DNA of 64,000 nucleotides, taken from Paenibacillus sp. Soil750. Lineage in GTDB: Bacteria; Bacillota; Bacilli; Paenibacillales; NBRC-103111. Below are positions 55,405-57,495 of this stretch, one piece after another (within the stretch, counting starts at the first letter, position 1; each line of letters begins with the position of its first letter). Under the pieces are notes generated by a model, which made no database searches, was not told where the DNA came from, and saw only the letters and a list, made by a program, of their open reading frames with translations. The position numbers and the translations under genes were made by a program. Where the stretch lies: contig NZ_LMSD01000002.1 in assembly GCF_001428045.1 (NCBI RefSeq), forward strand, positions 812 to 64,811, written 5' to 3'.

Positions 55405-55455
55405 TTGACACCGGTCAATTCACTTGTAGACTGCAAGTCTATTTTTGCATATAAT
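55405..55455 (+). promoter_or_regulatory. Promoter region with two palindromes upstream of the TetR-oxidoreductase gene
   Basis: Two dyads lie here: TTGAC-ACCG-GTCAA at 55405-55418 and TAGACT-GCA-AGTCTA at 55427-55441, both typical in size for TetR-family operators. TATAAT stands at 55450-55455. TAGACT, 17 bp before it, is a poor -35; a second promoter using TTGACA at 55405 is also possible. Autoregulation by the encoded TetR domain is inferred. Confidence 0.6.
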
Positions 55456-55489: not shown

Positions 55490-57412
55490 ATGAGTCAATT
55501 CATGAGAGCCTCGACCCGCAAAAAGCGTGATGTAATGATGGAAGTTGCTTTAACGATGTTCATGGAGAAAGGCTACGAGAACGTATCTGTCGATGATATT
55601 ATCGCAGCAACCAGCACCTCCAAAGGAACCTTTTATCATTATTTCAAAAGTAAAGATGCCATTATTTCAGCACTATACAGTAAACAAACGCAACTGATTC
55701 AGGATTGGGTGAAACAGCCTCCCTCGAAGGTACAATCGCTAGAAGGTCATATTAATCGTCTATTTTTAGACTTATCGTCGAATATTCAAATGTCACCACG
55801 ACTAATTCGTAGTTTGCAGGCACTTTCTTTACAAAATGACACGGTAAAATCAGAGGAACTTCAGCAATTGAAAGTCCTGACACAAAGCTTAATGCACTGG
55901 CTCCCGGAGCCTAAAAAGATTGAACTGCTTGTATGCATGTATACCGGAACGATTCTCACTTGGTGCAATCAAGATGATGCCGACCTGCTCTCCATGATGA
56001 AAAACAACTTAGCCTGGCTTTGGGTAGGACTTCGTTCTGAAGAACCTTACGCATCGTTGCAGGTAGAACCCGTCCCCAAGGAGGAAAAGCGAATGAAAGT
56101 AGCCATTATCGGCGGAGGTTTAGCTGGTTTAACAGCAGCCGCATATTTATCAGAAAATCCACACGTAGAAGGTATTCTATTTGAACGCAGTCCACAGCTG
56201 GGAGGGCGAGCATTTACGTATGAAAAAGCAGGTTTCACGCTCAACTACGGTGCGCATGCCATCTACGGCATTGATCGTCATACACTGACTACGATGGAAC
56301 GTGAACTTGGTCTTTCCTTCTCATCTAAACAAGTAGATAAACGGAAAGTCGTCTATGCGAAGCATAATCAACTTACAACCGCACCGCTGGATGCCATTAA
56401 TTTACTCAAAACTGATTTGCTAAGCACGATTCAAAAAGTTCGCTTTGTAGGCGAAATCGCGGCCATTATTGCTAATATCCACAATATCAAGAACTACGCT
56501 ACCTTAGCCGACTATCTTGCCGAATCTAACGCAGATGAAGATGTTAAAGAACTATGGGAGCATTTGGTTTGCTCCAACTTCTTCATTACGCCTGAGGATG
56601 CTCGCAACGTGTCCGGCGCTGTAATCAGCGAGTATTATCACAACTTGTTCTTGTCTAGTAAGCCTGTTAATTATGTCTTGGGCAGCTGGGCTGTTATCAC
56701 AAATCAGCTCAAACAAAAGTTGACCACTTCTGGCAAGTGGGAAATCGCCTTACAGGAAGGTGTCGACGGACTTCGTTATGAAGATCGTAAATTTGTATTA
56801 AAAACGAAAACACGTGAAATGGCGTTTGATAAAGTGATCTTCGCAATGCCGGTACAACAAGTAGTAAAACTACTTAAAGGTTCGGCTTGGGAGCCGTTCC
56901 TTGCCCCATATGAGTCCAATACAGCAACCGAAGTTATGGTTTATGATATTGGATTGAGCCGCGTCGTCGCTAGACCATTCAGTTACATCAGTGACATGGA
57001 TAATAAACTATTCATCAGCGATGTTTCTGCAACAGACCATACACTAGTCCCAGAGGGTGGACAATTGCTGCAAGGTATCGCTTACCTAAGTGATAAATTC
57101 GATAACGACGAGGAACGCAAGGCCTATTTGGACAATAAAACCTCGCAAATGGAAGCCCTATTCGACATGCACTACCCAGGCTGGCGCGATGTCACTGCGG
57201 TTAAGCGTGTATCCAAGAAAGCGATGGTTTCCAGTGTGAAAAATATTGCAACCAACCGACTTTTGCCAACTCGCGTGGAAAATATTCCGTTCTACTTCTG
57301 TGGAGACGGCTGCACAGGAAAAGGCGAGCTTGCTGAACGCGCATTCTCGAGTGCACGCAGCGCGGCTTTATCCATCGTACAGGAAGTGGAGCAAGCTTTG
57401 CAGAACGTATAA
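55490..57412 (+). CDS. TetR/AcrR regulator fused in frame to an FAD-dependent oxidoreductase
   Basis: One 640-aa frame. Residues 1-195 are a TetR/AcrR regulator: KKRDVMMEVALTMFMEKGYE, HTH SVDDIIAATSTSKGTFYHYF, then a helical ligand domain. From residue 202 it is a phytoene-desaturase/amine-oxidase-like flavoprotein: MKVAIIGGGLAGLTAAAYL (GxGxxG), FERSPQLGGRAFTYEKAG and the C-terminal FAD motif FYFCGDGCTGKGELAERAF. Start ATG 55490, 7 nt after GGAG. Inside, AAGGAGG (56078-56084) sits 8 nt before ATG 56093, so the flavoprotein could also be made alone. No family enzyme activity can be named with certainty. Confidence 0.82.
   Translation: MSQFMRASTRKKRDVMMEVALTMFMEKGYENVSVDDIIAATSTSKGTFYHYFKSKDAIISALYSKQTQLIQDWVKQPPSKVQSLEGHINRLFLDLSSNIQMSPRLIRSLQALSLQNDTVKSEELQQLKVLTQSLMHWLPEPKKIELLVCMYTGTILTWCNQDDADLLSMMKNNLAWLWVGLRSEEPYASLQVEPVPKEEKRMKVAIIGGGLAGLTAAAYLSENPHVEGILFERSPQLGGRAFTYEKAGFTLNYGAHAIYGIDRHTLTTMERELGLSFSSKQVDKRKVVYAKHNQLTTAPLDAINLLKTDLLSTIQKVRFVGEIAAIIANIHNIKNYATLADYLAESNADEDVKELWEHLVCSNFFITPEDARNVSGAVISEYYHNLFLSSKPVNYVLGSWAVITNQLKQKLTTSGKWEIALQEGVDGLRYEDRKFVLKTKTREMAFDKVIFAMPVQQVVKLLKGSAWEPFLAPYESNTATEVMVYDIGLSRVVARPFSYISDMDNKLFISDVSATDHTLVPEGGQLLQGIAYLSDKFDNDEERKAYLDNKTSQMEALFDMHYPGWRDVTAVKRVSKKAMVSSVKNIATNRLLPTRVENIPFYFCGDGCTGKGELAERAFSSARSAALSIVQEVEQALQNV
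56078..56095 (+). promoter_or_regulatory. Internal ribosome-binding site and start within the fusion gene
   Basis: AAGGAGG-N8-ATG in frame with the surrounding gene, exactly at the boundary between the TetR part and the flavoprotein (GTCCCCAAGGAGGAAAAGCG encodes the linker). It is as good as any start site in the window. Confidence 0.8.
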
Positions 57413-57436: not shown

Positions 57437-57486
57437 AAAAAGCTGCTCAAGATCTGACTTGTCGTCAGAAATTGAAGCAGCTTTTT
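57437..57486. terminator. Bidirectional terminator between converging genes
   Basis: AAAAAGCTGCT...AGCAGCTTTTT outer stem and TCTGAC/GTCAGA inner stem, with A/T runs on both sides. It ends the fusion gene and the GH26-like gene. Confidence 0.9.
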
Positions 57487-57495
57487 ATTTACGAA

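Follow-up and report, generated by a model that had tools for sequence, protein, structure and literature searches.

The window analyzed here, a 64,000-nucleotide stretch of the Paenibacillus sp. Soil750 genome, carries a gene in which a TetR-type regulator is followed in frame by a flavoprotein (Table 1). Translation of this frame gives zero internal stops between its ATG and its stop codon. A mechanical list of open reading frames begins the frame at TTG 55445, a position within the promoter region; homologs back a start at or near the ATG given in Table 1, with TTG at that codon in some of them. The N-terminal part matches the Pfam TetR_N profile (53.9 bits, cut-off 24), which was also found in all 18 rows of alignment A1, one of them partial. 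Profile comparison extends the match to solved TetR proteins past the HTH (3ang_C, profile positions 7–184), and a Pfam TetR C-terminal family matches one of the same 18 rows. The C-terminal part matches Amino_oxidase (PF01593) over residues 211–626 (72.6 bits, cut-off 19.8), covering profile positions 1–439 of 443. The first-pass annotation had described a TetR domain joined in frame to a complete FAD-dependent oxidoreductase with AAGGAGG-N8-ATG at the junction. The open frame and both Pfam matches bear out the former, and the latter reads as described, the internal ATG at 56093 standing 8 bases after the AAGGAGG.

Table 1. Features of the fused gene and its surroundings, in window coordinates.
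Feature	Position	Strand	Remarks
Fused TetR-flavoprotein gene	55490..57412	+	640 aa; ATG 55490, stop 57410-57412
TetR part, residues 1-185	55490..56044	+	Pfam TetR_N at residues 18-62
Linker, residues 186-201	56045..56092	+	Variable between genera except the ribosome-binding codons
Internal Shine-Dalgarno AAGGAGG	56078..56084	+	Translated; probably also a ribosome-binding site
Flavoprotein, 439 aa, complete FAD/amine-oxidase-type domain, own ATG	56093..57412	+	Pfam match and relatives
Operator-like palindrome TAGACT-GCA-AGTCTA	55427..55441	+	Overlaps the -35 box and spacer
Putative -35 box TAGACT	55427..55432	+	17 bases from the -10; read from sequence
Putative -10 box TATAAT	55450..55455	+	Conserved among the aligned genus loci
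Terminator-like inverted repeat AAAAGCTGCT ... AGCAGCTTTTT	57438..57487	+	3' of the gene; by eye

No named NCBIfam family fits the flavoprotein, the best 25 of 79 matches all lying below their cut-offs (PRK07233, 82.6 against 252; HpnE, 73.2 against 283; proto_IX_ox, 59.6 against 97.9; crtI_fam, 28.6 against 238). It has the FAD-binding superfamily in common with HpnE, protoporphyrinogen oxidase and CrtI-type flavoproteins, with partial matches, but among these best 25 of 79 its scores fall under the curated cut-offs of those families. The chemistry would be of the desaturase/amine-oxidase superfamily type. In many loci the fused gene holds a fixed slot beside genes that, from their proteins, are of GatB/YqeY, HIT, NfeD and FloA type, and it points away from them. 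A functional neighbor as target was rejected since no partner gene stands out, and no neighbor family is common to more than 8 of 35 unfused or distant loci. Neighbor genes, protein families and solved-structure matches gave no lead to the substrate. A role as a defense gene was also rejected, with only two weak matches to defense models, both in the FAD region (a C-3',4'-desaturase type at 29 bits and LmuA at 16.5 bits). Plasmid-borne relatives were sought as well; 115 plasmid records matched, none over more than 80% of the query, and in the best 15 of these 115 the match is confined to the TetR part.

We compared relatives for split and fused forms. All 30 genomes of the genus, the source genome included, contain a full-length fused match (82–100% identity) with no internal stop. 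At the level of the family, 89 of 104 genomes gave a match at E 1e-40 and 15 did not; by count of rows, 85 of the 104 are fused at full length, among them G042 with a TAA in the aligned stretch. The other family matches are G078, with TetR and flavoprotein in different frames, G102 and G032, with the flavoprotein alone, and G093, with a C-terminal fragment containing stops. The frame shift in G078 may be an assembly error, since this genome is 84% complete and in one contig. Within the order, matches came from 142 of the 392 genomes sampled, and 52 of these lie outside the family. Fifteen of these 52 have a fused-length form with TetR, namely 13 members of clade 1, the clade of the gene studied here, and a distant pair, G106/G114; by eye, the rest comprise 35 with the flavoprotein alone, one fragment (G126) and one distant paralog (G280). 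Regulation is therefore dispensable, given these 35 order genomes with a TetR-free flavoprotein. At class level 113 of the 398 sampled genomes matched, with G409 as the sole new fused case. At phylum level 4 of 398 did, namely the source genome and three with TetR-only matches; this sample, in which up to three candidates were scored for each genome, contained no new fusion. Among the 80 named loci listed, at least 17 are fused, the nearest of these being those of Paenibacillus sp. Soil766 and P. oryzisoli (98% identity), followed among the loci listed by P. phytorum (92%), Paenibacillus sp. yr247 (91%), P. chondroitinus (88%) and P. aestuarii (86%). Frames of 544–598 aa in the class genomes G714, G595, G443 and G454 have no TetR on the same frame, and the matches in Tumebacillus (L210) and Thermoactinomyces (L209) are not of the fusion type.

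The detailed comparisons used 110 loci, 30 from the genus and 80 fetched from the other matched genomes, a subset of these. The set holds 83 fused loci (81 of clade 1 and 2 of clade 2) and 27 that are not fused, of which 26 are TetR-free (including the fragment L147 and a second copy within the genus, L103) and one, L085, is split by frame.

The junction shows the lowest synonymous divergence of the whole gene. In a scan of the 30 genus sequences, which are mutually non-independent, the two lowest of 625 four-codon windows start at codons 195 and 196 (pS 0.10 and 0.15, compared with 0.64–0.72 over the TetR and flavoprotein parts) and cover the internal Shine-Dalgarno sequence (SD) at codons 197–199. 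Further low windows were seen at codon 93 (pS 0.18) and at codons 192–195 (pS 0.20). The latter (56063–56074) lie just upstream of the SD, which alone has no explanatory power there. Codon choice in the genus is uniform at the SD: 30/30 loci use AAG for Lys at -5 and GAG for Glu at -4, against shares elsewhere of 0.30 and 0.32, respectively. Among 52 loci, one from the genus and 51 from beyond it, Glu at -4, where present, is GAG in 37/37 (0.49 elsewhere), and Lys, found in 42, is encoded by AAG in 30 of them and by AAA in 12 (0.49). The residues of the linker vary (KEE, KGE, KGD, KEG, QEE, REE and others).

In 80 of the 81 clade-1 fused loci an SD core precedes the start by no more than 20 bases, and 80 of the 81 combine the ATG with a pairing energy of -7.9 kcal/mol or better. 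The mean pairing energy with the 16S tail is -10.5 kcal/mol over the 83 fused loci, against -6.5 kcal/mol for synonymous recodings and -2.9 kcal/mol for other in-frame Met codons. Applied to a single locus the recoding test is weak: on average 22% of recodings pair no worse than the native linker, and in L090, L091, L093, L094, L119, L134 and L135 about half do. Openness around the start (0.59 over 80 positions) also exceeds that at random places in the frame (0.43 over 240 positions). The idea that the junction RNA folds into a stable hairpin was rejected (z -0.17). In the unfused loci the same codon is ATG in 27/27, with pairing energies before it of -8.6 to -13.0, and this ATG with its SD is likely the start codon there. 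Since the fusion is present in 30/30 genus genomes and the two lowest pS windows fall on the ribosome-binding site, neither the fusion nor its internal start is a chance feature; the nested SD and start codon look selected within the reading frame, as the codon bias towards GAG and AAG and the 16S pairing energies also indicate.

It is unlikely, though the idea deserves weight, that only the fused protein is made and that AAGGAGG serves to slow ribosomes between the domains, or is a relic of a two-gene operon, rather than a start. The abstract of PMC5100845 records the suggestion that SD sequences inside genes may slow elongation and terms it controversial. One relative, G107 (L088), provides a natural control: its gene is fused and has the operator-like site described below, with ATT in place of the ATG and no SD. 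A free enzyme is therefore not a universal requirement, and in G107 the fused protein alone seems to suffice. However, the other 80 of 81 clade-1 loci keep both the SD core and the ATG, the sole exception having neither, and a relic would be expected to decay across genera like the remaining linker. The same ATG is the likely start of the unfused relatives, and, according to the same abstract, highly expressed genes contain fewer internal SD sites than expected. We therefore favor a nested start that is retained for its use.

The second conserved element lies at the promoter. The sequence TAGACY-N3-RGTCTA over the -35 box and spacer, followed by TATAAT, is common to 30/30 genus loci in the alignment. 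The exact palindrome occurs within 150 bases upstream of 79 of the 81 clade-1 fused loci, and by eye the remaining two, L089 and L110, have imperfect forms. The remaining 562,780 bases of these loci contain three matches, all positioned inside the fused genes of L089, L090 and L094. By a crude pattern, a TAGACY-17-TATAAT-like geometry is present in 50 of the 79 loci, with no -10 found in 26. The palindrome also precedes the TetR of the frame-split L085, and it is absent from the fetched DNA of all 26 TetR-free loci. The half-site TAGAC/GTCTA presumably resembles the LmrA/QdoR box. In the source genome (8.3 Mb) the palindrome occurs exactly once, at the fused gene, and in 12 whole genomes it occurs once in 10 and twice in two (G097 and G107). 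A reversed control pattern occurs 0–3 times per genome, so that one palindrome per genome is near chance; the number is unremarkable, and only place and conservation therefore argue for function. The extra palindromes of G097 and G107 were rejected as members of a regulon, having by eye no comparable promoter context. In L111, L116, L120, L126 and L138, two operator-like palindromes stand in tandem, 23–24 bases apart. Because TetR and palindrome co-occur, autorepression is indicated, with the palindrome at the gene's own promoter as the candidate binding site. The earlier interpretation is partly supported: comparison bears out a conserved fusion, a selected internal start and a regulator carrying its own enzyme, with this operator-like site at its promoter.

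We also considered the nearest TetR proteins that stand alone. All nine that were checked are followed by a close gene on the same strand, mostly overlapping, and none is fused to it. Palindromes of the GTCAT/ATGAC type lie upstream in 8 of the 9 loci checked, and the TAGAC type is found upstream of none of the nine. In L308, L309, L310, L311 and L215 the lone TetR lies directly before, or overlaps, a different FAD monooxygenase-like gene; unrelated genes follow those of L003, L230, L266 and L223. Pairs of a lone TetR and a FAD monooxygenase-like gene are a possible source of such fusions. The nine lone TetRs, five of them before a FAD monooxygenase-like gene, also lend something to the view that the regulator is real but that the full-length protein is cut, or acts as a plain TetR repressor with a passenger enzyme and no gating by it. 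We regard this as improbable, as the fusion was kept through long divergence though unfused arrangements work in relatives.

The frame itself appears constrained. In the genus, dN/dS is ~0.03 over residues 10–60 and ~0.07 over residues 61–185 of the TetR part, ~0.18 in linker residues 186–195 and 0.02 in the enzyme; these values are rough, because synonymous sites are near saturation. The TetR and linker frame thus look selected, under purifying selection. TetR has been lost several times among relatives, as would suit a TetR part that is a decaying remnant without DNA binding, but the dN/dS of ~0.03 in the DNA-binding part and the co-conservation of the operator-like site with TetR make such decay very improbable.

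The age of the fusion was addressed with a tree of 86 flavoproteins, from which 23 genus rows and the fragment L147 were omitted and which was rooted on the distant pair, two rows that are themselves fused. Unfused forms are nested in the fused clade, with seven changes, five of them forced by starred branches: five plain losses of TetR, the second copy L103 and the frame-split L085. A wider tree rooted on unfused relatives again places the unfused clade-1 rows among fused ones, with many inner branches weakly supported. The fusion is therefore older in clade 1, and TetR was lost repeatedly. Four unfused loci from two other genera (L068–L071) share the gene slot beside a GatB/YqeY-type gene. 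Relocation of TetR elsewhere in genomes with an unfused copy was rejected: 14 of 15 keep no close TetR relative (28–39% identity where E 1e-10 was passed), and the 15th, G018, also has a fused gene. The unfused copy of G018, L103 (G018:C20:350300-359700), is a TetR-free second flavoprotein between two related frames of ~249 aa. A recently lost TetR stop codon or a sequencing error in this assembly, raised at first because several linker codons are one change away from a stop, can be set aside with near certainty, given the fused form in 30/30 genus and 85/104 family genomes and in other families of the order, and the unfused forms nested within the fused clade.

A different TetR is fused to a relative of the enzyme in the pair G106/G114 (~35% identity) and in G409. 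The flavoproteins of these three nest among unfused proteins of Bacilli (branch SH-aLRT 98), and holding both fused clades together is weakly rejected (AU p 0.041 for the flavoprotein and 0.033 for TetR, modest values from quick trees, with the groups taken from the first flavoprotein tree). This second TetR fusion is probably independent. By eye, the junctions of L101, L102 and L272 also have an SD-like stretch and an ATG. In addition, in L293, L294, L295 and L306 a TetR gene and the gene for an unfused enzyme relative point away from each other, ~208–215 bases apart; these four are all the loci fetched from one other family, in which 7 genomes matched. The divergent TetR clusters with those of the second fused clade (SH-aLRT 84). 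From the second fusion and the divergent pairing, this enzyme family seems to have come under TetR control more than once.

Together, we propose that the gene encodes a self-regulating enzyme in two forms, a repressor-enzyme and a free enzyme, with one operator at its own promoter, and we put the probability of this at roughly two in three. Sequence comparison shows the conserved fusion, the operator-like site at this promoter and the selected internal start, and from there we infer DNA binding, repression, the two products, the signal and the type of chemistry. The full-length protein would dimerize through its N-terminal TetR part, bind the single operator over its promoter and repress the gene, and the DNA-bound TetR part would bring the flavoenzyme along. 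Ribosomes would also initiate at the internal AAGGAGG-N8-ATG to give the flavoenzyme without TetR, and by this route the enzyme could exceed the repressor. A substrate or product of the enzyme would free the TetR part from DNA, leaving the gene on until the compound is consumed. The signal would most likely act through the TetR ligand domain, favored because this part is under purifying selection, and less likely through the redox state of the flavin. Across a large group of Paenibacillus-type soil bacteria, a single gene thus seems to join enzyme and repressor in a feedback circuit. More tentatively, and on balance doubtfully, the circuit may be closed: the repressor would be the enzyme molecule itself, with one operator per genome, the nested start would set the ratio of free to DNA-binding forms, and mixed subunits would let enzyme occupancy or flavin state tune repression directly, in an arrangement of TetR with the same enzyme family that arose at least twice.

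Internal in-frame starts give long and short products in ClpB, IF2 and CheA. The fused gene is like these in having one frame with two N-termini, the second predicted here; unlike them, its internal start divides a transcription factor from an enzyme and is the likely start of the unfused relatives. Few enzymes are known to us to repress their own gene, PutA being the flavoenzyme example. As described in PMC5293562, PutA of E. coli and Salmonella is a flavoenzyme that bears a DNA-binding domain at its N-terminus and serves as an autogenous repressor, and a flavin route of gating exists in it. The protein studied here shares the layout of a flavoenzyme with an N-terminal DNA-binding domain, its autorepression being read from sequence alone. 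PutA, which represses the put regulon, is built from ribbon-helix-helix, PRODH and P5CDH domains. In the present gene a TetR domain precedes a flavoprotein of amine-oxidase/desaturase type, with a single operator-like site and a nested start for the free enzyme, and RHH, PRODH and P5CDH domains are not among the 15 Pfam families found in the fused protein at E 0.1. The best reading by analogy is a one-gene circuit comparable in logic to PutA and assembled from other parts. In B. subtilis, as set out in PMC8481877, QdoR represses the enzyme gene qdoI and its own gene and is released by the substrate of the enzyme; there a TetR-type regulator stands beside an enzyme in separate genes, whereas here the two are one fused gene. 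A search of the open literature, judged among the papers listed by title and opening of the abstract, found no TetR-flavoprotein or TetR-enzyme fusion, which is weak evidence of absence.

The junction would be a clean case of a ribosome-binding site translated as protein and under selection at the nucleotide level, and the fused protein is a possible ligand sensor once its substrate is found. The fusion is widespread in Paenibacillus-type bacteria and its operator is predicted to the base, while natural variants (fused only, fused with the nested start, and unfused) let the value of each part be tested. If the proposal is true, these bacteria hold a second design of self-repressing flavoenzyme, unrelated to PutA, in which a nested start frees the enzyme from its repressor.
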